DNA of 62,755 nucleotides from an alpha proteobacterium SCGC AAA536-K22 (lineage in GTDB: Bacteria > Pseudomonadota > Alphaproteobacteria > Puniceispirillales > Marisalimonadaceae), in contig ATWQ01000012.1 in assembly GCA_000421325.1 (NCBI GenBank), positions 1 through 62,755 of the forward strand, given 5' to 3'. This document shows positions 2,041 through 15,141 of this stretch, one piece after another. Each line of letters starts with the position of its first letter. Position 1 is the stretch's first letter. A program made the position numbers and the translations under genes. A model generated the notes under the pieces. The model made no database searches. It was not told the DNA's origin and was given only the letters and a program-made list of their open reading frames with translations.

Positions 2041-2598
2041 ATGTCAATTGTTATTAGTGCAGAGATAGGGATTAATCATAATGGTGATATGTCCATTTGT
2101 AAGCAACTCATAGACGTAGCAGCTGACTCTGGTGCAGATTGTGTAAAGTTCCAAAAAAGAGATATAAATGAGGTTTATACACCAGAGTATTTAGATTCTG
2201 CAAGAGATAGTCCTTGGGGAACCACTCAACGAGAGCAGAAGATAGGGTTAGAGTTTAGTGTAGAGCAATATAAAGAGATAGACGCTTACTGTAAAACCAA
2301 GGGTATTGATTGGTATGCAAGTGCGTGGGACATCAACTCGCAAATTTTTCTACGCCAATTTGACACTAAGTATAATAAAGTTGCTTCAGCAATGATTGTA
2401 TATAAAAAGCTATTAAAAGAGATTGCAGGTGAAGGCAAGCACACCTTTATATCTACAGGTATGACAACCTATGCAGATATTCAGGTAGCGGTTGATATTT
2501 TTAATGAACATGGTTGTTCATTTGAATTAATGCATACTGTTTCTACTTATCCTATGAAAGATGAAGATGCTAATCTTAAGATGATAGAAACTTTGAGA
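2041..2598 (+). CDS. neuB: N-acetylneuraminate (nonulosonate) synthase NeuB, 3'-truncated
   Basis: This is the N-terminal half of a NeuB-family synthase, which condenses phosphoenolpyruvate with an N-acyl amino sugar to form a nonulosonic acid. Family blocks are plain: EIGINHNGD at the start, VKFQKR, YTPEYLDS, WGTTQREQK, and TFISTGM. The good sequence ends at MIETLR (residue 186 of about 350 expected). The frame then runs through the inverted 95-bp ABC fragment and stops at 2667, so the last 22 codons are foreign. The catalytic C-terminal barrel half and the SAF domain are missing. The break is probably a chimera. A start nine bases after the phosphatase stop indicates an operon. Confidence 0.9.
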
Positions 2599-2686
2599 GG
2601 TAAATATCTTTGTTTCGATACTAATATTACTGGTTTTGTTTGTCTTGTTTCTGCTAACTCTTTTTGAATTGATTCAAATGCTGAAA
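2592..2686 (-). repeat. Inverted repeat, right arm (95 bp, exact)
   Basis: This is the reverse complement of bases 1-95. Its left end coincides with the point where neuB breaks. Bases 2592-2598 (TTTGAGA) fit both the neuB reading and the ABC sequence, so the junction has about 4-7 bp of microhomology. Confidence 0.95.
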
Positions 2687-3662
2687 TACTCCCTTTTATT
2701 CCTGCAATGCTTGCGTAAATTTGTTGAAAAGCTGGCAGTAGTTTAAAGCCTGCAAATGCATAAACAGAAAGTATTGGTAGAATCATACCCAGATCACCAT
2801 TATGACTAGCTATTAAGTAAAGCAAAAGCGACATCATTGAGCCAAAGGCAAGTAATTCCATGAAATAGCGTGGAACTTGGCTTAATGCAACATTAGTACC
2901 TTGACTGTATGCAAGTTTAAAACCTGATTGATTAAAGTTTTTTATAAAATCATTCGCTCTACCTAATAATATTACATCTTTAATGCCACCAAAACCTTCA
3001 TTCATTAGACGAAAACGCTTTTCATTCACTTCTGAAATAGCTCTACCATTACTTTGCAAGCGCAACCTTACTACTTTAAAAAGAATAAAATATGCAAGTG
3101 CAAAAAAAGAAATTCCAATTATAGCAACTTTGGGGTCATAGAAAAATATAGCAAGAAAAATAAATAGTGTAAGTACGATGCGTGAATTCATTTGCATAAG
3201 GGGCATCAATATTCCATTTGTTACTCTTTGTGACTCAACAGCAATCTTTTTTGTGAACTGAGCACTACTTCCAGATGTGTGGAATAACCAATTCTGCTTT
3301 AGATAATGTTCATAGAGACGATCCGCAATTTCGGCGCCAACTTTGTGCCCAAACATGGACAGCCTCCATGTGGTGTATATAGATACTAAAGTTGAAAAAA
3401 GTAACACTACCATAACTCCAACACCAAGCAAAAATACAAATTTTGTTTCTGAGGTTATACCACTGAATTGGTAAACTTTAGTTATCAAAGTATCTTGTTT
3501 AAGCTCACCCATATTCCCGACTATTCCCATAAAGGGAATAATCGATGCCAGGCTAACAATTTCAGTAAATGCCATTAAAACAACCATAAACTGAAGTAAA
3601 TAAAAACTCTTGCGTTGGTCTTTAGAAAGTAAAGTAAAAGATTCTTTTAAAAGTTTAAACAT
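2592..3662 (-). CDS. ABC transporter (flippase-type), membrane half, 3'-truncated
   Basis: This is the N-terminal transmembrane domain of the ABC exporter whose ATPase half starts this window. About 357 residues are genuine. Hydrophobic segments appear near residues 22-47, 77-97, 157-190 and 255-300, as expected for a six-helix exporter domain. It resembles PglK-type lipid-linked oligosaccharide flippases. The open frame continues about 14 codons past 2592 into antisense neuB, and those codons are not real. In the undamaged genome this gene should read straight into the domain at 96-821 and then the SIS-phosphatase-neuB genes, all on one strand. Confidence 0.88.
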
Positions 3663-4159: not shown

Positions 4160-4564
4160 ATGCTCACAGTCCCTAAAATTAAAATGCTTGTAGTCCATTG
4201 CTCTGATACTGAAAATAACCAAGATTTATCAGCAATAGACATTCATAAAATGCATTTAGGGTTTGGCTGGGATGGTATAGGTTATCACAAAATTATTAGA
4301 AGATCAGGTGAAATTGAAAATGGCAGACCTGAATATTGGATGGGAGCTCATGTTAAAGGTATAAATGAAATTAGCTTAGGTGTATGCCTAATAGGAAAAG
4401 ACCAATTCACTAAAAGACAGTTTGCTTCCTTAGAAAAGATTTTAATAAAATGGAAAACCATATATCTAAATGCTCAAGTGGTCGGACATAAAGATACTGG
4501 AAACACCAAAAAAAGTTGTCCAAATTTTGATGTTGTCACTTGGTGGCATCATAGATTTAAATGA
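4160..4564 (+). CDS. N-acetylmuramoyl-L-alanine amidase, T7-lysozyme/PGRP-like (AmpD role)
   Basis: This is an Amidase_2/PGRP-family zinc amidase of 134 residues, close in layout to T7 lysozyme. Likely zinc ligands are His13 (VVHCSD), His110 (VGHKDT) and Cys120 (SCPNFD), matching the His-His-Cys pattern of T7 lysozyme. The family cleaves the bond between MurNAc and L-Ala. There is no signal peptide, so it should act in the cytoplasm, where AmpD-type enzymes strip peptides from anhydro-muropeptides. Its stop overlaps the start of the NlpC/P60 gene (ATGA), so the two are translationally coupled. A phage origin is possible, but no other phage genes are near and recycling genes surround it. Confidence 0.85.
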   Translation: MLTVPKIKMLVVHCSDTENNQDLSAIDIHKMHLGFGWDGIGYHKIIRRSGEIENGRPEYWMGAHVKGINEISLGVCLIGKDQFTKRQFASLEKILIKWKTIYLNAQVVGHKDTGNTKKSCPNFDVVTWWHHRFK

Positions 4565-5316
4565 ATATTATTACACCATCAACATATATGAAATCAAATA
4601 CTCAAAGTGTGTCGCTTCTAGAAACTGAATGTTTGTATGGAGAAAAAGTTGAGATTTTAGATAAGTATCAAGAATGGGTTTATTGTAAATTAAATACAGA
4701 TAATTATTGTGGTTGGATCCAAAAAAACAGTTTAGGACAACTAAAAAAAATAACACATAGAGTTATAAATAAAAGCTCCTTTATTTATAGAGAAACTAAT
4801 CCCAAATCTGAAATTTTACTGCGCATTCCTATGGGTGCTAGATTAGCAGTTGAGAATATAAAATCAAATTGGGCTCAAACTTTTTTGATTATTAATAACA
4901 AAATGCAAGTTGGTTATGTACCTAGTGGGCATATAGTTGATAACGACAATAAAGTTAATGACTGGGTAAAAATTGCTCAAACATTAGAAGGGACTCCTTA
5001 CAGATGGGGAGGAAGAGACACTCTAGGCATAGACTGTTCAGCTTTGTTACAGTTATCATATCAAACATATGGACAAAACATACCCAGAAATACTTCAGAG
5101 CAAGTAAACCTGAAAAAAAATACCTTAACAAATCTAAATAATTTGAAACGAGGGTGTGTAGTTTTTTGGCCTGGACATGTTGGGATAATGATTGATAAAG
5201 TAAACTGCATACATGCAAATAGTTTTCATATGAAAACAGTAACTGAACCACTTTTTGATATTATCAATAGAATGGATAAAGATCATCTAATTGCGAAAAT
5301 GATGGATTTTAATTGA
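4561..5316 (+). CDS. NlpC/P60 gamma-D-glutamyl endopeptidase with SH3 domains (YkfC-like)
   Basis: The 251-residue protein has two bacterial SH3-like regions (about 10-60 and 65-125) followed by an NlpC/P60 cysteine peptidase. The catalytic Cys159 lies in GIDCSALLQ, His206 in WPGHVGIM, and a polar third residue is His218 (CIHAN). Family members cut between D-Glu and the diamino acid of peptidoglycan peptides. The SH3-plus-NlpC layout matches Bacillus YkfC, which degrades free muropeptides. There is no signal peptide, so a cytoplasmic recycling role after the coupled amidase is likely. The gene overlaps the amidase by four bases and converges on the epimerase gene 19 bases away. Confidence 0.87.
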   Translation: MNIITPSTYMKSNTQSVSLLETECLYGEKVEILDKYQEWVYCKLNTDNYCGWIQKNSLGQLKKITHRVINKSSFIYRETNPKSEILLRIPMGARLAVENIKSNWAQTFLIINNKMQVGYVPSGHIVDNDNKVNDWVKIAQTLEGTPYRWGGRDTLGIDCSALLQLSYQTYGQNIPRNTSEQVNLKKNTLTNLNNLKRGCVVFWPGHVGIMIDKVNCIHANSFHMKTVTEPLFDIINRMDKDHLIAKMMDFN

Positions 5317-5335
5317 CCAAAGCTTTCTAAAAAAT

Positions 5336-6349
5336 TTATAAATAGTAAGATTTATACCATTCAACAAATTTAGTTATTCCTTCATGAACCGTTGTTTTAG
5401 GTTGAGAGCCTATAAGATTTTCAAGAAGGGTAATATTACTATGTGTTTTATAAATGTCTCCGTCTTGCATGCCTAAAAATTTCTTCTTTGCATTAATGCC
5501 TAATATTTTTTCTAGTTCTGTTATAAAATCAAGTAAGTTTATAGGCTTAGAATTTCCAATATTCACTATTCTAAAAGGAGCTACATCAGACAAACTATCA
5601 TTTTTAATAATTTCTTTATTTTTTTGAGTTTCAAAGGGGTTTTTAAATGTTAAAAGGTAAATAGCCCTAACTAAATCGCTTATATAAGTAAAATCTCTGA
5701 CCATATTGCCTTTATTGTAAACACTTATAGGCTTGTCTGATAAGATACTCTTAGTAAATTTAAATAAAGCCATATCAGGTCTTCCCCATGGCCCATAAAC
5801 AGTAAAAAACCTAAACATAGTAGTGGGTATTTTATATAAATGAGCAAAAGAATGAGCAATAGCCTCATTCGACTTTTTGGTTGCTGCATAAAAAGACATT
5901 GGCGTGTCAGATTTTTGATTTTCATGCAGCGGCATGTCCTTGTTACTTCCATAAACAGAAGATGTTGATGCCATTAGCAAATGCTTGGGTTTGAATTTTC
6001 TTGCTAGTTCAAGTATATGAAAAGTTCCTATTAAATTAGCTTCTAAATAAGACATAGGATTATCAATTGAGTATCTTACACCTGCTTGTGCTGCTAGATG
6101 AATAATAATTTTGGGTTTGTGATTTTCACAAATTTTATGTAATAACTTTGAATTTTGAAGCAAACCTTTATAGGCTATAAATTCAGGGTTCTTTTCTAAA
6201 ATGCTATGTCTGTCTTTTTTTAAATTAACATCATAATAATTTGTCATGGCATCAAAACCAACAACTTTCCAATTTTTTGATAAGAACGTTTGAGCTAAGT
6301 GAAAGCCAATGAAACCTGCAGAACCTGTAATTAAAACAGTTTTACTAAT
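5336..6349 (-). CDS. NAD-dependent SDR epimerase, UDP-glucuronate 4-epimerase-like, probable ATT start
   Basis: This extended SDR protein resembles UDP-glucuronate epimerases (CapI/LpsL type), which make UDP-galacturonate for surface sugars. From the first ATG (6247) it would lack the NAD-binding Gly motif. In-frame upstream codons encode LITGSAGFIGFH, the Rossmann glycine motif, back to an ATT at 6349, with AAGGAG seven bases before it. ATT is therefore the likely start, giving 337 residues, the normal length. The catalytic motif is YAATK, followed by FRFFTVYGPWGRPD. It lies 49 bases downstream of murQ on the same strand and may be cotranscribed with it. Exact substrate specificity is uncertain. 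Confidence 0.82.
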   Translation of the reverse strand: MSKTVLITGSAGFIGFHLAQTFLSKNWKVVGFDAMTNYYDVNLKKDRHSILEKNPEFIAYKGLLQNSKLLHKICENHKPKIIIHLAAQAGVRYSIDNPMSYLEANLIGTFHILELARKFKPKHLLMASTSSVYGSNKDMPLHENQKSDTPMSFYAATKKSNEAIAHSFAHLYKIPTTMFRFFTVYGPWGRPDMALFKFTKSILSDKPISVYNKGNMVRDFTYISDLVRAIYLLTFKNPFETQKNKEIIKNDSLSDVAPFRIVNIGNSKPINLLDFITELEKILGINAKKKFLGMQDGDIYKTHSNITLLENLIGSQPKTTVHEGITKFVEWYKSYYL

Positions 6350-6398
6350 TTTTAATCTCCTTAAAAAATTTTATTAAAATAATTATTTTCAATTAAAT

Positions 6399-7136
6399 TT
6401 AATTATCTATCCTAAGCTTTCTATCTCTTAACTTCTGATTTGTTGGTAACATATGGCTCATTTTTCCATTTTTTACTCTACCCAATTTAACCATAACTAA
6501 AGATGAAATAATGTTTAGACAAATTTTCTGAGCAGTCCCAGCTTTTAATCTTGTTGATCCAGCTATTAATTCTTCTTTTGTATCAAGAATAATTTTACAT
6601 TTTCCAAATTCCAATAATTTTCCATTTGGGTTATTACTTATGGCAATGGTAAGAGCCTCTTTTTTATTAGCCTCTTTCAGAACCTTACATGTAAAGGGTG
6701 TATTTCCACTAGCAGCCAAAGCAATTACCACATCATGTGAATTTATAGATTTCTTAGAAACAAATTTTAAAGCCCCAGATATGTCATCTTCTGCATTTTC
6801 GATGGAATTTAAAACAGCCTGATTACCACCTGCTATAATGTAATCTAATCTTGATTTTGGCCAATTAAATGTTGGTAAAAGTTCAACACCGTCTTGAACG
6901 CCTATTCTACCTGAGGTTCCGGCTCCCACATATATCAATCTTCCTTTTGGGTATGTTTTTAGGTGTTGATATATTTTATTCGTTGCCATTTCTATTGATC
7001 TCTCAGCTTTTTTTACATCTAATGATGCACCTCTATGCTCTTTAATCATTAGAGAAATAGCTTCAGCTGAACTTAAATGATCTATTGGTTTACTTTTTTT
7101 ATAAATTCGTTCTGTTTTGGGTATATTTTTAATCAT
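6399..7136 (-). CDS. murQ: N-acetylmuramic acid 6-phosphate etherase, short form
   Basis: MurQ cleaves the lactyl ether of MurNAc-6-phosphate to give GlcNAc-6-phosphate and D-lactate, the step after AnmK in peptidoglycan recycling. The SIS core is plain: YVGAGTSGRIG (about residues 69-79), the VELLPTF segment that carries the family's catalytic Glu, ENAEDD with the second conserved Glu, AASGNTPF, and GSTRLKAGTAQK. It has 245 residues against about 298 usually. It stops soon after the TNQKLRDRKLRI block and lacks the last 50 or so residues (small helical domain). No continuation is seen in other frames, so the short form looks natural. It is divergent from anmK with 46 bases between them. Confidence 0.92.
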   Translation of the reverse strand: MIKNIPKTERIYKKSKPIDHLSSAEAISLMIKEHRGASLDVKKAERSIEMATNKIYQHLKTYPKGRLIYVGAGTSGRIGVQDGVELLPTFNWPKSRLDYIIAGGNQAVLNSIENAEDDISGALKFVSKKSINSHDVVIALAASGNTPFTCKVLKEANKKEALTIAISNNPNGKLLEFGKCKIILDTKEELIAGSTRLKAGTAQKICLNIISSLVMVKLGRVKNGKMSHMLPTNQKLRDRKLRIDN

Positions 7137-7182
7137 ATTTAATATTATATAATTAAAAATAATTGAAAAGGCTAATTAAGTT

Positions 7183-8274
7183 TTGAGGTATGATTTTTTA
7201 AATATTGCTGGTTTAATGACTGGCACTAGTATGGATGGAATAGATATTAGCTTAGTTCAAACTAATGGGTTAGAATTAAGAAGATTAAATAAAAATTACT
7301 TTTACAAATATAGTGAGAAAACAAAGAGAACTTTACTGAGTTTCTTGAAAGAGGATCTCAATGTAAAATTAAAAAGAAAAAAATATTTTGATGATTTTGT
7401 AACTAACGAACACTTTTTAGCCCTAAAAGATTTAGATATTTTAGAAAATTGTGAATTGATAGGTTTTCACGGCCAGACAATCTATCATAATCCGAAAAAA
7501 AAAGTTTCTATCCAGCTAGGCAATCCCCAAAAGTTAGCAAAGTTACTTAATAAAAATATTATTTTTAATTACAGAGAAGATGATATTGCATTAGGAGGAC
7601 AAGGAGCCCCTATAGCACCAATATATCATCAGTTTATAATTAAATCATTAGATATAGAATTACCATGCTGTTTTTTAAACATAGGTGGTATATCTAATTT
7701 AACTTTTTGGGATGGAAATTCATTAATTGGTTTTGACACTGGACCGGGAAATGCATTGATGGATGACTATATGTCTAGCATGTTAAATAAAAATTATGAT
7801 AAAGATGGCAAACTTGCGTCTAAAGGAACTCCAATTATCGAAGAAATTTCAAGTTTCCTAAAATTTGATTTTTTCAAGAGACTACCTCCTAAATCACTTG
7901 ATAGAGAGAATTTTTTATTTTTTTATAATGAGCTAGTTAACAAAAATCACTCTGTTAATGACATAATGGCAACCTTAGCCGAATTAACAGTTGAGACTAT
8001 TGCAATTAGCTTGGAAATTTTGCCTAAAAAGGTAAAAAATATTATAATTACGGGAGGTGGGTACAGAAATGTCCATTTAATGAACCGCCTTAAAGATAAA
8101 TTAAACATAAAAATTTTTAATGAAAAACAACTTGGAATTAACTTTGACTTCATTGAGGCGGAATTGATAGCTTATTTATCAGCTAGATCATTATATAACC
8201 TTCCATTTACCTTTCCAACAACAACTGGAGTTTCAAAACCATCATCAGGTGGAGATTTATATAAATATTTATAA
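7183..8274 (+). CDS. anmK: 1,6-anhydro-N-acetylmuramic acid kinase, TTG start
   Basis: AnmK hydrolyses and phosphorylates 1,6-anhydroMurNAc to MurNAc-6-phosphate in the cytoplasm. The kinase-fold motifs are intact: GLMTGTSMDGID near the start, FHGQTIYH, NIGGISNLTF, GFDTGPGNALMDDY, and ITGGGYRN near the C-terminus. The 363-residue length is normal. The start is TTG at 7183, since the conserved GLMTGTS block lies 10 residues later. It is divergent from murQ, its pathway partner, and the short shared gap suggests joint control. It converges on the PIG-L gene with a six-base overlap of ends. Confidence 0.95.
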   Translation: MRYDFLNIAGLMTGTSMDGIDISLVQTNGLELRRLNKNYFYKYSEKTKRTLLSFLKEDLNVKLKRKKYFDDFVTNEHFLALKDLDILENCELIGFHGQTIYHNPKKKVSIQLGNPQKLAKLLNKNIIFNYREDDIALGGQGAPIAPIYHQFIIKSLDIELPCCFLNIGGISNLTFWDGNSLIGFDTGPGNALMDDYMSSMLNKNYDKDGKLASKGTPIIEEISSFLKFDFFKRLPPKSLDRENFLFFYNELVNKNHSVNDIMATLAELTVETIAISLEILPKKVKNIIITGGGYRNVHLMNRLKDKLNIKIFNEKQLGINFDFIEAELIAYLSARSLYNLPFTFPTTTGVSKPSSGGDLYKYL

Positions 8275-8958
8275 AAAGCCGTGCTGATTTTCTATATGAA
8301 ACGGCCTTAATTTTAAAGGAGAAGGTAAAATTTCCCTAATATCTGAGAAAGGAAATGAGGGAAAATAGGTATAAGCTTCCGCATAACTATCATTAGGAGC
8401 ATTACATTGGGCAGCTCTGTAAGAATTCATTAATTTAAATAAGTTAACAAATCTTTGAGGATTTTGAGTTTTGTGTTTAAGAATGGCCTCTTTTTTTAAT
8501 TCATAATGATTTGTTATATCGACATAATAATTAGGATTAAAATTTACACCCATTAAAGTATCACAATTTAAAATTGGGATATAATGACTTACTACTTCTT
8601 TGATTATTATGGATAATGACCTGTGATCTGCATGATAATCATTTTCTGAATGTGTGATAATTAAATCCGGCATTATTTTTAAAATATTCTTTTTTATGAT
8701 TTTTCTATGTTCCAAATCTTCACCCAATTCTCCATCTGGAAACTTTAAGAAAATTGGTAAAGATAGTTTTTTTAAACCATTGATAGTTTCATTAGCCCTT
8801 TTCTGGGCTAATTTTTTACCTTTAATTGCACCTCCTTTTGCTCCATCAGTAGCAATCATTGTGTATACTTGATGCCCTTCTTTTTTATAAATAGAAAGCA
8901 AACCATACATAAAAATTTCAATATCGTCAGGATGAGCACCAACCGCTAAAACTTTCAT
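8269..8958 (-). CDS. PIG-L/LmbE-family deacetylase
   Basis: This is a zinc-dependent N-acetylglucosaminide deacetylase-family protein of 229 residues. The metal motif AHPDDIE lies near residues 8-14 and the second motif HADHR is present. The start at 8958 is preferred over the ATG at 9003 because GGGAGAA lies before it and the family begins with this strand. Relatives deacetylate GlcNAc-PI, GlcNAc-malate, mycothiol precursors or, in archaea, diacetylchitobiose. Beside anmK, murQ and a GH84 glycosidase, a GlcNAc or GlcNAc-6-phosphate substrate is a reasonable inference. The gene is divergent from GH84 with 56 bases between starts. The actual substrate cannot be read from the sequence. Confidence 0.83.
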   Translation of the reverse strand: MKVLAVGAHPDDIEIFMYGLLSIYKKEGHQVYTMIATDGAKGGAIKGKKLAQKRANETINGLKKLSLPIFLKFPDGELGEDLEHRKIIKKNILKIMPDLIITHSENDYHADHRSLSIIIKEVVSHYIPILNCDTLMGVNFNPNYYVDITNHYELKKEAILKHKTQNPQRFVNLFKLMNSYRAAQCNAPNDSYAEAYTYFPSFPFSDIREILPSPLKLRPFHIENQHGFL

Positions 8959-9014
8959 TATATTTTTCTCCCAATTAAGATAATATACTATTGTAATATT
9001 CAAAAAGATATCAA

Positions 9015-10154
9015 ATGAAAAATAATGAAAATAACATAATCGGGTATATCGAGGGATATTATGGCAGACTATTACCTTGGAAATATAGAAAACTTATAAT
9101 TAAATCACTTAGAAAAAATAAGATGAATACTTACTTCTACGCTCCCAAGGAAGACATTTGTCATAGATTATGCTGGAGGAAAAAATATAGTAAAAAATGG
9201 CGTTTTAATTTTAGAAAGTTTATTCAATTTAGCAAAAAAAATGGCATAAATGTCATAGCTGGCATTGCTCCTGGACTAGACTTTAATTTTAATGAATTGC
9301 ATGATGTTTCTAAATATAATCAAAACTCTGATTTCGATTTTCTCTTAAAAAAAGCTAAACAGTTACTTGAGGATGGAGCTGATTCTATAGCTTTAATGTT
9401 AGATGATATTCCTAATGATTTTAAAAAAAAATTTCGTATTGATGTGTCTGAAGGCACATACCATGCTATTTTGGCTAATAAGCTCTCAAAAGAACTAGGA
9501 CAAAATATTTTCTTTGTACCAAGAATTTATGCTGATGAATTAATAAAAGATAATCCTTATTACTTAAAAGATTTAAGCAAGACTCTGTATCCTAAAATAA
9601 AAATATTTTATTGCGGTAAAAATGTAGTTGCTAAAAATATTAAAAAATATAAAAAAATATTATCTAATGAGATCATTATTTGGGATAATTTTTATGCTAA
9701 TGATTATTGTCCCCGACGCTTTTTTATTGGGCCACCTTTGGGAAGAGAAAACTTAAAAAATATTATGTTTAACCCTACAGGTTTAATAAAAACAGATCTT
9801 TTAATTTTAGATATATTTGGAAGAAGTATTATTAGCAAACTTTCAAAAAGAGAATGGAAAAATATATTAAATGTTCATGGTGTTCCAGAAATATTTCTCA
9901 AAATTAATCAATTTTTTCTAATGCCAGATTTTGGGTTAAATCCATCCCCTCAATCACTTAATGTTAAGAAAGATGATATTAAAATATTAGATTTTCTTTT
10001 ATGGAAGTGGAAAGGAGAATTGTCAAGAGAATGGTACCCTTATTTGTTTGGCCTGAAGCAAGATTTACAAATCAACCAAAAACTTCTAACCTCAGAGCGA
10101 ATAATAAAAAGTCAAACCATCCCTCTATCTGAATTTCTAAAAAAGGAGAATTGA
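9015..10154 (+). CDS. GH84-family beta-N-acetylglucosaminidase, cytoplasmic
   Basis: The protein matches glycoside hydrolase family 84 (O-GlcNAcase/NagJ). Visible blocks are IEGYYGRLLPW near residue 12, YFYAPKEDICHR near 40-51, the catalytic Asp pair in ALMLDDI (Asp130, Asp131), and IWDNFYANDYCPRRFFIGPP. GH84 enzymes remove terminal beta-GlcNAc by substrate-assisted catalysis. The 379 residues form only the catalytic unit: there is no signal peptide and no extra carbohydrate module, so it should be cytosolic. Set among amidase, murQ and anmK genes, it could split GlcNAc from anhydroMurNAc as NagZ (GH3) does elsewhere. This role is inferred. It is followed after one base by a dehydrogenase gene. 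Confidence 0.87.
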   Translation: MKNNENNIIGYIEGYYGRLLPWKYRKLIIKSLRKNKMNTYFYAPKEDICHRLCWRKKYSKKWRFNFRKFIQFSKKNGINVIAGIAPGLDFNFNELHDVSKYNQNSDFDFLLKKAKQLLEDGADSIALMLDDIPNDFKKKFRIDVSEGTYHAILANKLSKELGQNIFFVPRIYADELIKDNPYYLKDLSKTLYPKIKIFYCGKNVVAKNIKKYKKILSNEIIIWDNFYANDYCPRRFFIGPPLGRENLKNIMFNPTGLIKTDLLILDIFGRSIISKLSKREWKNILNVHGVPEIFLKINQFFLMPDFGLNPSPQSLNVKKDDIKILDFLLWKWKGELSREWYPYLFGLKQDLQINQKLLTSERIIKSQTIPLSEFLKKEN

Positions 10155-10155
10155 A

Positions 10156-11028
10156 ATGAAAAAAATCGGTTTTATTGGCTTAGGTAATATGGGAGCTAGA
10201 ATGGCAACAAATCTTCTGAATGCTAATTATGAAGTTATTGGTTATGATATTAATGAAGAGTTTGTAAAACAACTTTTACCCAAAGGACTAAAAAAAGCTT
10301 CAGATTTAAATGATCTGTCACAAGACATAGATATAATTATTACTATGTTACCAAATGGAGAAATTGTAGAAGAAGTGTTAGATAGCATTATTGATAGTTT
10401 AAGGCCTGGCACATTGATAACAGATTGTTCAACTATTGATGTAGATAAAGCAAAAAATCTACATAAAAAATGTGAGGATAGAAAACTTTTATCTCTTGAT
10501 GCTCCAGTTTCAGGTGGTGTTGGTGGAGCCGAAAATGGCACACTAACTTTTATGGCAGGTGGCACAGAAAATGCTTATGTAATAATGTTGCCTTTATTTG
10601 AAGTAATGGGGAAAAAGTCGCTTTTGTGTGGTTCATGTGGCACAGGACAAGCCACAAAAGCATGTAATAATATGTTATTAGCAACTACCATGATCAGTGT
10701 AGGAGAAGCTTTCAACCTAGGCAAAAATTTAGGTCTAGATCCTCAAAAATTATTTGAAATATTGTCAACTTCAACTGGATCATGTTGGGCAATAAATAAT
10801 TATTGTCCTATTAAAGGGGTAGGGCCTGAAAGCCCCGCAGACAATAACTTTGAACCCGGATTTTCAGCAAGCCTAATGTTAAAAGATCTAAGTATAGCTC
10901 TCAATGCTATAGAGACAAATAATACTAATGCCCCCTTTGGAAAAAAGGCACAAGAAAACTTTAACAATATGGTCAAAAACAATAAAGGTAATTTAGACTT
11001 TTCGGCGATAACAAAATTCAATGAATAA
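10156..11028 (+). CDS. 3-hydroxyisobutyrate dehydrogenase-like beta-hydroxyacid dehydrogenase
   Basis: The 290-residue protein has an N-terminal NAD(P)-binding motif GFIGLGNMGARMA (about residues 4-16), the substrate block DAPVSGGVGGAENGTL, and the catalytic-Lys region GTGQATKACNN. This is the full architecture of the 3-hydroxyacid dehydrogenase family that includes MmsB, tartronate-semialdehyde reductase and threonate dehydrogenase. The detailed valine-pathway activity is not certain. The start lies one base after the GH84 stop, with AAAGGAGAA across the end of the upstream gene, so the two are translationally coupled. That pairing is unusual and may point to a sugar- or lactate-related substrate. 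Confidence 0.85.
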   Translation: MKKIGFIGLGNMGARMATNLLNANYEVIGYDINEEFVKQLLPKGLKKASDLNDLSQDIDIIITMLPNGEIVEEVLDSIIDSLRPGTLITDCSTIDVDKAKNLHKKCEDRKLLSLDAPVSGGVGGAENGTLTFMAGGTENAYVIMLPLFEVMGKKSLLCGSCGTGQATKACNNMLLATTMISVGEAFNLGKNLGLDPQKLFEILSTSTGSCWAINNYCPIKGVGPESPADNNFEPGFSASLMLKDLSIALNAIETNNTNAPFGKKAQENFNNMVKNNKGNLDFSAITKFNE

Positions 11029-11056
11029 AGCTATCATAGTCTACTAACATCTATAG

Positions 11057-13075
11057 TTAGATCAATAAAGGAGCAATAACTAAACTGACAATAGCCATAA
11101 CATTAATTAAAATGTTCATTGACGGGCCAGATGTGTCTTTCAAAGGATCACCAACTGTGTCGCCGACAACTGCAGCCTTATGAACATCAGAACCTTTACC
11201 TCCAAAGTTCCCCTTTTCTACAAATTTCTTTGCATTGTCCCAAGCTCCACCTGCATTTGACATCATTAACGCCATCATTACACAGCAAATAAGTGCACCA
11301 CCTAACATACCACCAAGTGCCTTAGGACCTAGTAAAGACCCAATTATAACAGGTGACAAAACCGCAAGAGTTCCAGGACCTATCATTTTTCGTAGTGCAG
11401 CTCTGGTTGCGATATCAACACACCTTGCTGTATCAGGTTTGGCTTTACCTTCTAATAGACCAGGTATTTCTTTAAACTGCCTTCTAACTTCTTTAATCAT
11501 ATCAAAGGCTGCGTCACCAACTGCTGTCATTGTCATTGAACTAACTAGGAAAGGAAAAATTCCACCTAAAAACATACCGCATAAGACTAATGGATCATTA
11601 ATAGCCAAAACAAAACTTGGGTCACTACTTGAAATTTTTTCAATATAAGCACTTATCAATGCTAATGCTGCTAATGCTGCTGCGCTTATTGCAAACCCTT
11701 TACCAATTGCAGCTGTAGTATTTCCGACTTCGTCGAGAGAGTCTGTTATTTCTCTAGTTTCTTTACCCATTTCAGACATTTCAGCAATTCCACCCGCATT
11801 ATCCGCTACGGGACCATAAGCATCAATTGCCATTGTAATACCAACTGTACTCAACATACCAACAGCAGCGATACCTACTCCATACAAACCTGCGTAAATA
11901 TTGGATATAAATATTATAAATACTATTGTTAAAACGGGTATAGCAACTGATTGCATACCAGTAGCAAGTCCAGAAATCATAACCGTAGCTGGACCAGTTT
12001 CACCATCTTTGGCTATTTTCCTTACTGGTCTACCTCCGGTATAATATTCAGTTACTAACCCAACAACAATTCCACCAACAGATCCTACTAGAACTGCAAT
12101 CCAAACGCCTAATGATACGCCCATAAAATTAATTAGAAAATATGATGTTAAAACGAATATTACTGCAGATCCAATCGTACCATATCTCAGAGCAGTCTCT
12201 GGACTTTTAGAAGAAAAAATCTTAACAGTAATTATTCCTAATAATGAACATATCAAACCTAATGAAGCTAAAGCTAAAGGCATGAATTGCAACATAGATT
12301 GGTTTCCACCAAGATTTGTTATTGTAATGCTTGTCATTGAAGCCGCTAGCGCAATACAAGCAATCATTGATCCACAGTATGATTCAAAAATATCTGATCC
12401 CATACCAGCTACATCACCAACGTTGTCTCCAACATTATCAGCAATTACTGCAGGATTTCTAGGATCATCTTCTGGAATGCCCGCTTCCACTTTTCCTACT
12501 AAATCAGCTCCAACATCTGCACTTTTGGTAAAAATACCACCTCCAACTCTAGAAAAAAGAGCAACCGAGGACGCCCCCATTGCAAAACCTTCAATTGCGT
12601 GAATAGTTTCAGAATTCCCTGCAAAATAATAAAATAAAATACCAATCCCAAACAAACCCATCGCTGCAACCGTTAGGCCCATAACTGAACCACCAAAAAA
12701 GGCAATGTTTAAAGCTTCAGCAGCACCTTTTTCTTTTGCGGCTACAGCAGTTCTAACATTTGCTTTTGTGGCAGCGTACATACCAATAAATCCTGCGATA
12801 CCAGAACATAATGCACCAAGTAAAAATGAAGCAGCAGTTTGCCATCCTAAAGAAAAATATAGAGCTAAGATACAAATTAAACAAAATATAGCTAATCTTT
12901 TATATTCTGCAGACATGAATACCATGGCACCAAGGTGAATTTCGTCTCCTATCTCTTTAACACGACCCTCGCCTTCTGGAGAAGACTTAACCTTTAGATA
13001 TAATGCATAAGCAGACATTATGCCAATAAGACCAAGAAAAACTGTTATAAGAGAATATGGCATTAAAAACCCCAT
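11057..13075 (-). CDS. hppA: Membrane-bound ion-pumping pyrophosphatase
   Basis: The 672-residue polytopic protein couples PPi hydrolysis to H+ or Na+ export. The substrate/Mg motif [21 protein letters not shown] is present, followed by [10 protein letters not shown], and near the end [11 protein letters not shown]. The [13 protein letters not shown] stretch has Ala where K+-independent enzymes have Lys, which suggests the K+-dependent subclass. That subclass includes both H+ and Na+ pumps, so the ion cannot be told by eye. Sixteen or so membrane helices are expected. It lies 63 bases downstream of the YkuD gene on the same strand and converges with the dehydrogenase gene. Confidence 0.95.
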
Positions 13076-13138
13076 TTATTAAAAAAATTTACTTTTAATT
13101 TGAATATTTCAATCTGTAAAGACTTATATTTTTAAATA

Positions 13139-13678
13139 TTACTTTTTAATTTGGATATATGTTTCTCTCTTAATATTTTCAATTAAAAACATCAAATCTC
13201 TTTTTTTTAACGCAACACAACCTGCTGTTGCTTTCAAATCTTCAAAACTACAATGTATAAAAATTGCACTTCCTTTATTCTTAATTATTGGTTTGGTATT
13301 GTGAGACATTTCTATAATTATGTCATAAGCGTTGTCTTCTCTCCATAATCTTTCATAACTTATCTTATTTAAAATACATTTTGTATTAACGTATTTATTG
13401 TAATTTTTACTACTAACATCGTCACACCACCCACAGTATTGTGTAATTCTATTTATTTTTAAAATATTTTTTTTCTTAAATTTTGGTCTTAAAACCCTAT
13501 CAGACCTATAATACAATGATACTAAGTACCATTTCCCAATTGGGGTAGTTTTATCACCTTCTACTTTTTTTTCTTCCTTTTTAAGCCCTCCTGAGCCTAT
13601 TTGACATCTAAAAGCTTTTTTACCAACTTTTAAGAAATATTTTTTATTAAGATTTATAACTAACCAATTTTTCTGCAT
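13139..13678 (-). CDS. Leaderless YkuD-domain L,D-transpeptidase/carboxypeptidase
   Basis: This 179-residue protein has the YkuD catalytic block: SAIFIHCS, then ATAGCVAL, where the Cys of GCVAL is the nucleophile and the upstream His is its partner. The conserved WCDD and ERLWREDNAYD segments match a short alphaproteobacterial YkuD group. There is no signal peptide or lipobox, so periplasmic crosslinking is unlikely. Cytosolic YkuD proteins such as Acinetobacter ElsL act as L,D-carboxypeptidases that remove the terminal D-Ala from recycled tetrapeptides. Divergent placement from ampG with 92 bases between supports that role. Substrate assignment is an inference. Confidence 0.83.
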   Translation of the reverse strand: MQKNWLVINLNKKYFLKVGKKAFRCQIGSGGLKKEEKKVEGDKTTPIGKWYLVSLYYRSDRVLRPKFKKKNILKINRITQYCGWCDDVSSKNYNKYVNTKCILNKISYERLWREDNAYDIIIEMSHNTKPIIKNKGSAIFIHCSFEDLKATAGCVALKKRDLMFLIENIKRETYIQIKK

Positions 13679-13770
13679 TATTAATTATAGATTATTTAAT
13701 CAAACAAAAAACATATATTTTTGTAAAAAATTAGAGTAAAAATATACAATATTTTTAGATTGTTTTTATA

Positions 13771-15141
13771 ATGGTAAAAAAAAAGCAGAGCTTGATTGAA
13801 TCAATTTTAGTATACAAAGATACAAGAATGCTAAAAATCTTACTTCTTGGCGCCATTAGTGGTTTTCCATGGGTCCTGATTGCGACTAGTTTAAGCCTTT
13901 GGCTTAAAGAAGAGGGTCTTAGCAGATCAACAATTGGGTGGGCTGGTTTAATTTTTGGTGTATACGCATTTAATTATCTATGGGCTCCAATTATAGATAG
14001 AATTCAAATACCTCTATTAACAAAAAAACTAGGCCACAGAAAAGGATGGATAGTCTTAATGCAGTTTGCAATTTTATTAAGTTTGATAGTTTGGAGCTTT
14101 ATAAACCCTGCTCAAAACTTAGCTTTATTAATTTCTGTTGGATTAGTTATTGCTATAGCGTCAGCTACGCAAGACATAACCATTGATGCTTTAAGAATTG
14201 AACAAATCAGTGAAACTGAAGGAAAGGTTATGGCAGCCGGTGCAGCAATGGCGGTGGTTGGTTGGTGGACTGGATATAAACTTGGAGGAGTAGCAGCTTT
14301 ATTTACGGCTGAATATTTTGACAATATGGGAATTACTGATTACTGGCAAACAACATTCTTAATTTTAGGAGCTTTTATAATTTTGATGAATATAGGTTTG
14401 ATTTTTGTTAATGAGGCAATTGAAACTAATAGACAAGATAAACAGAAGGAAAATGAAAAAATCATTTCAGGTAAACTTGAGTCTAGTAACATTGTAACAA
14501 GTTTCTTTACATACATTGCTGGAGTTATAGTGGGACCTGTAATTAGCTTTTTTAAAAAAAATGGATTTGCTATAGCTTTAGGAATATTAGGTTTTGTTTT
14601 CTTATTCAAAATTGGAGAAGCATTTCTTGGCCGAATGTCAATTGTATTTTATAAAGAAATTGGATTTTCTAAAGGGCAGATCGCTATTTACTCTAAAGGA
14701 CTTGGTTGGATTACAACTGTTGTTTTTACATTTTTAGGTGGTGTAATGGCAATGAGAACTGGAACAGTAAAAACTATGTTCTTTGCAGGAGGTTTGATGG
14801 CTTTAACCAACCTTCTATTTGCAGTTTTAGCATGGACAGACAAATCTGAATTATTGTTTGCCATTGCTGTCATTGCTGACGATATCGCGGCTGCATTTGC
14901 AACAGTAGCATTTGTCGCATTTATTTCATTATTAGTTGATAGGACTTACACAGCCACCCAATACGCTCTGCTTGCTTCCATAGGAACAGCTGGCAGAACA
15001 ACTCTTGCTTCATCATCAGGAGCCCTTGTAGATTGGCTTAACGGAGATTGGGGGATTTTTTTTATTTTTACCACTTTAATGGTAATTCCTTCTTTAATTT
15101 GTCTGTGGCTCATAAAAAATAGAATTAAAATTGGTAGGTAG
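13771..15141 (+). CDS. ampG: AmpG-type muropeptide MFS permease
   Basis: The 456-residue MFS protein matches AmpG, which imports GlcNAc-anhydroMurNAc-(peptides) from the periplasm. Family features include SGFPWVLIATSLSLWL in helix 1, the LWAPIIDR and HRKGW block of the first cytoplasmic loop, SATQDITIDALR near residue 130, and the ATQYALLASIGTAGR block in the second half. About 12 membrane helices are seen. A charged linker near residues 212-235 separates the halves. It is divergent from the YkuD gene, and recycling enzymes lie within 10 kb. Specificity for GlcNAc-anhydroMurNAc follows from the family. Confidence 0.9.
   Translation: MVKKKQSLIESILVYKDTRMLKILLLGAISGFPWVLIATSLSLWLKEEGLSRSTIGWAGLIFGVYAFNYLWAPIIDRIQIPLLTKKLGHRKGWIVLMQFAILLSLIVWSFINPAQNLALLISVGLVIAIASATQDITIDALRIEQISETEGKVMAAGAAMAVVGWWTGYKLGGVAALFTAEYFDNMGITDYWQTTFLILGAFIILMNIGLIFVNEAIETNRQDKQKENEKIISGKLESSNIVTSFFTYIAGVIVGPVISFFKKNGFAIALGILGFVFLFKIGEAFLGRMSIVFYKEIGFSKGQIAIYSKGLGWITTVVFTFLGGVMAMRTGTVKTMFFAGGLMALTNLLFAVLAWTDKSELLFAIAVIADDIAAAFATVAFVAFISLLVDRTYTATQYALLASIGTAGRTTLASSSGALVDWLNGDWGIFFIFTTLMVIPSLICLWLIKNRIKIGR

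Follow-up and report, generated by a model that had tools for sequence, protein, structure and literature searches.

Can a bacterium that encodes the permease, kinase and etherase of peptidoglycan recycling carry out the remainder of the pathway without NagZ, NagA and LdcA, and if so, which proteins take their places? The question is raised by an island at positions 4160..15141 of contig ATWQ01000012.1 (GCA_000421325.1), the whole of which, 62,755 nt, is referred to here as the window. It comes from the alpha proteobacterium SCGC AAA536-K22, whose draft genome (2.0 Mb in 92 contigs, 79.8% complete) is SAR116-like: among the best 80 loci kept from a wide scan beyond its order for glycoside hydrolase family 84 (GH84), SAR116 cluster bacteria are the closest named carriers. 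The island probably encodes one cytoplasmic pathway salvaging the cell's own peptidoglycan turnover products, with GH84 serving for NagZ and a PIG-L family deacetylase for NagA. The evidence leans somewhat, though no more than that, towards a broader proposition: that the order rebuilt the sugar branch of recycling from unrelated families, GH84 doing the job of NagZ and PIG-L acting as an N-acetylglucosamine-6-phosphate (GlcNAc-6-P) deacetylase outside the amidohydrolases that was repeatedly exchanged for NagA, with a GH84 that is shared with Granulosicoccaceae and probably moved between classes. A first-pass annotation of the window had interpreted the island as a recycling pathway with non-standard families in three positions; that interpretation is supported and sharpened here, and the island is best seen as a variant of the known pathway.

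Gene content and predicted pathway

All eight genes that the first-pass annotation had named are present at 4160-15141, with profile matches to the expected families:

4160..4564, plus strand: AmpD-like N-acetylmuramoyl-L-alanine amidase (Amidase_2), leaderless; PF01510, 51 bits, cut-off 26
4561..5316, plus strand: YkfC-like SH3_16 and NlpC/P60 peptidase, overlapping the amidase gene by 4 bp; PF00877, 64 bits, and PF18348, 43.8 bits
6399..7136, minus strand: MurQ, N-acetylmuramic acid (MurNAc)-6-phosphate etherase, a short form of 245 amino acids (aa); PRK05441, 270 bits, cut-off 168
7183..8274, plus strand: AnmK, anhydro-MurNAc kinase; PF03702, 241 bits, cut-off 24, and NF007141, 359 bits, cut-off 352
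8269..8958, minus strand: PIG-L/LmbE zinc deacetylase, candidate for NagA's place; PF02585, 83.3 bits, cut-off 28.2
9015..10154, plus strand: GH84 protein (O-GlcNAcase family), leaderless, candidate for NagZ's place; PF07555, 151.3 bits, cut-off 25
13139..13678, minus strand: leaderless YkuD protein, 179 aa, predicted ElsL-type cytoplasmic L,D-carboxypeptidase; PF03734, 43.7 bits
13771..15141, plus strand: AmpG muropeptide permease; TIGR00901, 367 bits, cut-off 350

In the pathway predicted from these families, AmpG would import GlcNAc-anhydroMurNAc-peptide, the amidase would release the peptide from anhydroMurNAc, the leaderless YkuD protein would take off the terminal D-Ala, and the NlpC/P60 enzyme, joined in sister lineages by an M19 dipeptidase, would degrade the peptide. 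On the sugar side, GH84 in NagZ's place would yield GlcNAc and anhydroMurNAc, AnmK and MurQ would together carry anhydroMurNAc to GlcNAc-6-P, and PIG-L in NagA's place would convert GlcNAc-6-P to glucosamine-6-phosphate (GlcN-6-P), which would probably proceed to UDP-GlcNAc via GlmM/GlmU. The substrates and reactions of this scheme are predictions, as would be any fate assigned to the free GlcNAc. GH84 catalysis uses the substrate's own acetamido group, and GH84 must therefore precede any deacetylase acting on that sugar. The claim that none of the enzymes has a signal peptide also holds as far as hydropathy alone can tell: the 15-residue Kyte-Doolittle mean close to the N-terminus, a crude measure and not SignalP, peaks at no more than 1.13 in the seven enzymes as against 2.23 for AmpG.

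The predicted steps and their order are those of the Escherichia coli AmpG/AmpD/NagZ/LdcA/AnmK/MurQ/NagA pathway, and AmpG, AnmK and MurQ belong to the standard families. The differences are that GH84 would stand in for the GH3 enzyme NagZ, PIG-L for NagA and YkuD for LdcA, that the genes lie in a single island, and that a classical NagB is rare. The window's MurQ stops ~55 residues short of the C-terminal end of the model and scores below the TIGR00274 equivalog cut-off (195.6 against 302 bits, the C-terminal part of the model being uncovered); full-length SAR116 copies measured 243-276 aa. Among alphaproteobacteria, Caulobacter crescentus offers the nearest comparison, and in the accessible part of the report on it (PMC13046382) LdcA and Mpl are described as absent, so that it shares with SAR116 an alphaproteobacterial AmpG pathway lacking LdcA. 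It differs, according to the same text, in having NagZ, two NagA proteins and a MurU shunt but no MurQ, whereas SAR116 has MurQ, for the most part does without NagA, and has yielded no NagZ from any genome tested.

GH84 where NagZ would be expected

Three samples were compared: 58 genomes of the window's family, 136 of its order, and 386 of the class (381 from outside the order and five order members, the source genome included). Of the 58 family genomes, 40 have AnmK and 40 have GH84, with both present in 39 and neither in 17, so that GH84 accompanies AnmK in 39 of 40 cases; the two share a contig in 37 of those 39 genomes. Co-occurrence and shared contigs of this kind indicate that the island is more than a chance association. 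Across the order GH84 is present in 85 of 136 genomes.

Gene order was mapped at 20 loci of the family and, for two sister families, in every one of the 45 genomes that carry GH84 (in sets of 37 and 8), and the placement of GH84 and PIG-L beside AnmK, which the first-pass annotation had put forward as the feature to look for in relatives, is conserved across the order. GH84 is found at 19 of the 20 family loci, each time with PIG-L no more than 0.9 kb away, and MurQ at 17; the amidase (6 of 20) and the NlpC/P60 gene (7 of 20) are the looser part of the island in this family. In the sister families AmpG lies on the examined stretch in 33 of the 45 genomes, the other 12 stretches being only 3.5-12.2 kb long. 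The most compact picture is provided by G258 (locus L101), a single contig of 2,753,527 bases rated 100% complete, in which all eight genes fall within ~9 kb. Conversely, G044, also rated 100% complete, lacks both GH84 and AnmK, and the whole pathway can thus be lost together. In two genomes a match is broken up, that to GH84 being in pieces with stops in G024 and that to PIG-L split across frames in G036.

The standard enzymes, by contrast, are missing. GH3 (PF00933, the NagZ family) is found in 0 of the 58 family genomes and 0 of four further genomes of the order, that is, in 0 of 62 distinct genomes; LdcA (PF02016), scanned for in the window's family, is found in 0 of 58. The source genome itself has no PF00933 match, and the sole Pfam match of its GH84 protein is NAGidase. 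All three profiles, for GH3, NagA and LdcA, do match in genomes such as E. coli. In the class sample GH3 is present in 326 of 386 genomes and in none of the five order members. With NagA over its cut-off also in 0 of 58 family genomes, the situation is the opposite of one in which nagZ, nagA and ldcA are all present elsewhere and GH84 and PIG-L wander away from anmK and murQ in relatives. These absences, the conservation and the PIG-L/NagA exclusion described below are gene-level evidence in favor of non-standard families in the NagZ, NagA and LdcA positions. A survey keyed on NagZ and NagA would, as a consequence, score SAR116 as being without peptidoglycan recycling even though the whole pathway seems present.

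Several observations pull the other way. Of the class genomes that do not belong to the order, 55 of 381 lack GH3 and GH84 alike, so that absence of GH3 is not in itself rare. The order sample for GH3 covers the window's family and four genomes of f2, with families f168 and f169 outside it. Most genomes compared are incomplete, which limits every absence. Finally, G046 has AnmK, PIG-L and MurQ with GH84 missing.

Whether the GH84 protein serves some other purpose is a question that its own sequence invites. Its fold and active-site motifs are those of O-GlcNAcases; D130 and D131 are invariant in 16 sequences, as are K45, Y172, W223, N225, D230 and N253. We take the first two to be the catalytic Asp pair and the others to be residues of the GlcNAc pocket. 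The bacterial GH84 enzyme OgOGA (2xsa/2xsb) has the same fold and the same active-site residues. The protein could accordingly be an O-GlcNAcase or act on a surface or storage glycan, with its proximity to anmK a matter of inherited gene order, and the window's island is indeed surrounded by surface-polysaccharide genes. Such a role is nevertheless distinctly unlikely given that GH3 occurs in none of the 62 order genomes while GH84 is found in 39 of the 40 family genomes with AnmK, and that members of the same GH84 clade have AmpG nearby at all 11 of the Granulosicoccaceae loci among the best 80. In the portions of the literature available, GH84 is studied as an O-GlcNAcase or hexosaminidase, and no description was found of GH84 or PIG-L in peptidoglycan recycling or of this SAR116 arrangement. 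If GH84 does act in NagZ's place, bacterial GH84 enzymes, which are more familiar as model systems for the human O-GlcNAcase, would gain a natural bacterial task to test.

The evolutionary history of the gene points beyond the order. In a midpoint-rooted tree of 72 selected rows (31 drawn from the best 80 loci), the GH84 proteins of SAR116 fall together with those of 11 Granulosicoccaceae (Gammaproteobacteria) in a single group with 99/99 support. Near the GH84 gene at those 11 loci are AmpG (11), NlpC (9), the amidase (7), AnmK (4), MurQ (3) and M19 (2), with neither PIG-L nor NagA at any of the 11. From the tree, transfer of GH84 between the classes, in one direction or the other, is likely. 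The notion of GH84 as a general alphaproteobacterial trait was rejected: it occurs in only 11 of the 386 class genomes, the five order members and six scattered others, all six of which also carry GH3, the five of them that were placed in the tree lying far off. One genome from another alphaproteobacterial family, G312, has a distant GH84 near AnmK, AmpG and MurQ (L108) along with a GH3 gene. Distant GH84 genes such as those of SAR86 and Fibrobacterota, which make up 33 of the best 80 loci, have no other island gene within the flanks examined. In SAR86 (L209, L222) the protein is ~347 aa long. The genes that precede it there are presumably hemA, prfA and prmC.

PIG-L as a proposed substitute for NagA

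No genome of the window's family has NagA (TIGR00221, cut-off 225.65 bits) over the cut-off, and the possibility that it was overlooked there was rejected, the partial matches of ~18-33 bits given by 51 of the 58 genomes being read as other amidohydrolases. In the order as a whole NagA is found in 15 of 136 genomes at E<=1e-12, 13 of them over the cut-off and two, G499 and G501, partial and below it. For the island PIG-L, a limit of E<=1e-15 gives 70 of 136; 69 of these reach <=5.2e-35, and the remaining match, in G045 (5.8e-17), looks like a paralog, so that G045 was scored as lacking the island gene. The broken matches in G024 (GH84) and G036 (PIG-L) were scored as present. The two deacetylases never occur together (0 of 136). 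Among the 85 GH84-bearing genomes of the order, 67 have PIG-L only, 10 NagA only, none both and eight neither (Fisher p 1.4e-8, uncorrected for kinship); among the 45 that lie outside the window's family, the corresponding counts are 28, 10, 0 and 7 (p 6.1e-6, likewise uncorrected for kinship).

The exchange also recurs within narrow groups. Swap trees were built from 55 of the 56 mapped GH84-bearing loci (L086 left out), with a 51-locus version that also omits four rows having neither deacetylase; eight further sister-family loci are in neither tree. On the 51-locus GH84 tree the PIG-L and NagA states require three changes, all forced by well-supported branches, and on the 55-locus tree, with the four rows scored as not NagA, they require four. 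Inside genus g5, PIG-L is carried by G448, G449, G450 and G453 and NagA by G451, G160 and G452; inside genus g282, G458 has PIG-L and G456 has NagA. Five genomes of genus g286 (L109-L113) have NagA on the same contig as the island, to the side where AnmK is. This mutual exclusion supports the assignment of GH84 to NagZ's position and PIG-L to NagA's.

The protein itself is compatible with such a role. The open reading frame (ORF) as listed (244 aa) begins upstream of the conserved start, and the gene is best read as the 229-aa form at 8269-8958, which is the commonest length among relatives. The metal motif HPDD...HxDH (H9, P10, D11, D12, H109, D111, H112) is invariant in 30 sequences, and the predicted-structure model has a predicted local distance difference test (pLDDT) score of 91. 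Two alignments were used, A3 comprising 30 chosen PIG-L rows and A2 leaving out L088 and L085 (stop codon within the coordinates) and also L087. PIG-L is moreover the only candidate NagA substitute in the island. The accessible text on Caulobacter (PMC13046382) reports that loss of both nagA genes was not achievable, which its authors link to toxicity of GlcNAc-6-P; on that basis, a MurQ-bearing cell without NagA would need a substitute.

Not everything fits a phosphorylated substrate. The PIG-L enzymes that have been characterised use GlcNAc conjugates that bear no phosphate, and neither "6-phosphate" nor "NagA" appears in the main text, as available, of a review of LmbE proteins (PMC4101496). 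The closest solved relatives by sequence are diacetylchitobiose deacetylases (~30% identity in the structure alignment), and in fold comparison the model's top match, level with deacetylases, is GalB, a superfamily member that works as a hydratase. Near NagA in L113, L118 and L119 lies a gene of the BcrAD_BadFG kinase family, which in L118 matches NagK_SO3507 at 134 bits (cut-off 370), and with a kinase at hand the swap could be one of kinase plus NagA for a PIG-L acting on free GlcNAc. Eight GH84-bearing genomes, furthermore, have neither deacetylase (G028, G457, G502, G505, G509, G513, G515 and G516). In three of these, G505, G513 and G516 of family f169 (L124, L234 and L125), AnmK directly adjoins GH84 with no PIG-L between, and they are real exceptions; the ORFs listed for L124 and L125 include none recognisable as another deacetylase, and f169 islands may hold some third deacetylase solution. 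As for the other five, in G502 the contig edge falls inside AnmK (L126), in G515 and G509 GH84 is at the contig edge (L236, L232), G457 is 57% complete, and in G028 GH84 itself is partial.

In light of these points, the most serious competing proposal is that PIG-L deacetylates the free GlcNAc released by GH84 to GlcN, in the manner of the archaeal diacetylchitobiose deacetylase Dac, a PIG-L family enzyme that according to the available text of the review acts on GlcNAc2 in chitin breakdown (PMC4101496), with the GlcNAc-6-P made by MurQ left to an unrecognised enzyme. The likeness of the solved relatives in sequence and fold and the kinase gene at some NagA loci, as if kinase and NagA together replaced PIG-L, speak for it. 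Even so, MurQ accompanies PIG-L at 17 of the 20 family loci, so that GlcNAc-6-P would still be formed and need a deacetylase, and at the genus g5 loci L115 and L128 NagA takes PIG-L's stead with no kinase recognised alongside in the ORF lists. This proposal is possible but doubtful. A role in a low-molecular-weight thiol pathway of the bacillithiol kind, with the gene here by chance, has very little to recommend it: the protein has only BshB/Mca-type matches in NCBIfam, all below cut-off and with TIGR00221 not among them, and although BshB1 (TIGR04001) is the best of these, it scores 70.2 bits against a cut-off of 182.5, while PIG-L is conserved beside AnmK and GH84 and never found together with NagA. 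Deacetylation of GlcNAc-6-P, the preferred assignment, would represent a predicted new substrate for the PIG-L superfamily.

Peptide branch, fate of the products and neighboring genes

On the peptide side the components are less novel. The amidase and the NlpC/P60 peptidase, whose genes overlap in the window, form a single reading frame of Amidase_2, SH3_16 and NlpC/P60 in sister lineages, in all five long ORFs scanned (L110, L113, L117, L131 and L134), and given this fusion it is very likely that one enzyme takes over where the other leaves off. On a closer tie to AmpD itself the scores diverge: the L101 ortholog reaches 28 bits against PRK11789, for which the cut-off is 143, but the window protein is over the Amidase_2 cut-off. 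The NlpC/P60 gene has the YkfC-type layout, SH3_16 plus NlpC/P60 with no N-terminal hydrophobic stretch. A gene for an M19 dipeptidase lies in the island neighborhood at 24 of the 56 loci compared and, among the named loci of the best-80 GH84 set, was seen in 19, directly 3' of GH84 in 17; a fitting substrate for it would be L-Ala-D-Glu, the dipeptide that a YkfC-type enzyme would leave behind. In one metagenome-assembled genome (L138:8976-11051) GH84 and the M19 dipeptidase share a reading frame, which could reflect a genuine fusion or else a misassembly. Similarly, a HAD-family hydrolase gene lies near the island in 18 of the 56 loci (L101:1154-2023, L137:102-782 and 16 others), beside the amidase where looked at.

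A leaderless YkuD protein in the role of LdcA is already known and hence is not new. ElsL, as described in the accessible text on it (PMC8649774), is a leaderless YkuD enzyme acting as a recycling L,D-carboxypeptidase; proteins of its class are 105-200 aa long, have YkuD as their sole domain and come from genomes that lack LdcA. The window's protein, leaderless, 179 aa and with the YkuD domain only, agrees with that class in these respects and is predicted to belong to it; it differs in that its gene adjoins ampG.

What becomes of the sugar product is less certain. Classical NagB (TIGR00502) was found in eight of 136 order genomes, in one of them over the cut-off, the SIS-type NagB not having been searched for. 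Presumably TIGR00502 does not cover that type, which tempers the following argument. Given the rarity of classical NagB, GlcN-6-P is expected to return to UDP-GlcNAc and not to enter glycolysis, and it may well do so; the first-pass view of sugar phosphates as end products is qualified in that GlcN-6-P may go back to UDP-GlcNAc. The same count bears on whether the island instead uses peptidoglycan fragments scavenged from other cells. AmpG-type uptake serves either source, and the M19 dipeptidase and LamB/YcsF-type genes of sister-lineage islands suit amino-acid catabolism; a classical NagB for burning the amino sugar is nonetheless rare, with the limit on SIS-type enzymes just given, and scavenging is unlikely by comparison with the salvage of the cell's own wall proposed here. 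At eight loci of genera g5 and g283, among them L130:2955-5647, the LamB/YcsF gene adjoins the island. Beside it at those loci are what we take to be further 5-oxoprolinase genes.

Inside the island are three genes that the first-pass annotation had passed over:

5336..6247, minus strand: NDP-sugar epimerase/dehydratase, outside the recycling set; PF01370, 142 bits
10156..11028, plus strand: 3-hydroxyisobutyrate-dehydrogenase-like (HIBADH-like) gene, 1 bp after GH84; TIGR01692, 332 bits, cut-off 291.6
11057..13075, minus strand: membrane pyrophosphatase, between the enzyme genes and the YkuD-AmpG pair; NF001961, 1105 bits

The HIBADH-like gene follows GH84 at all 19 of the GH84-bearing family loci, without an evident place in recycling. 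It and the pyrophosphatase were rejected as island core, neither having been seen in sister-family islands; both are missing from the compact G258 island (L101) and for that reason look like later insertions. An uninformative promoter scan gave 68 sites against a mean of 61.5 in shuffles and a terminator scan nine against 5.2; a tRNA scan of the window gave none. Elsewhere in the window, a NeuB-like ORF at 2041-2667 is short (208 aa, the profile covering 171 of 241 positions) and is overlapped by an opposite-strand ORF at 2547-3662. The epimerase read from its ATG lacks the Rossmann motif, which in-frame upstream sequence (6248-6349) supplies behind AAGGAG, and its start is probably an upstream ATT codon.

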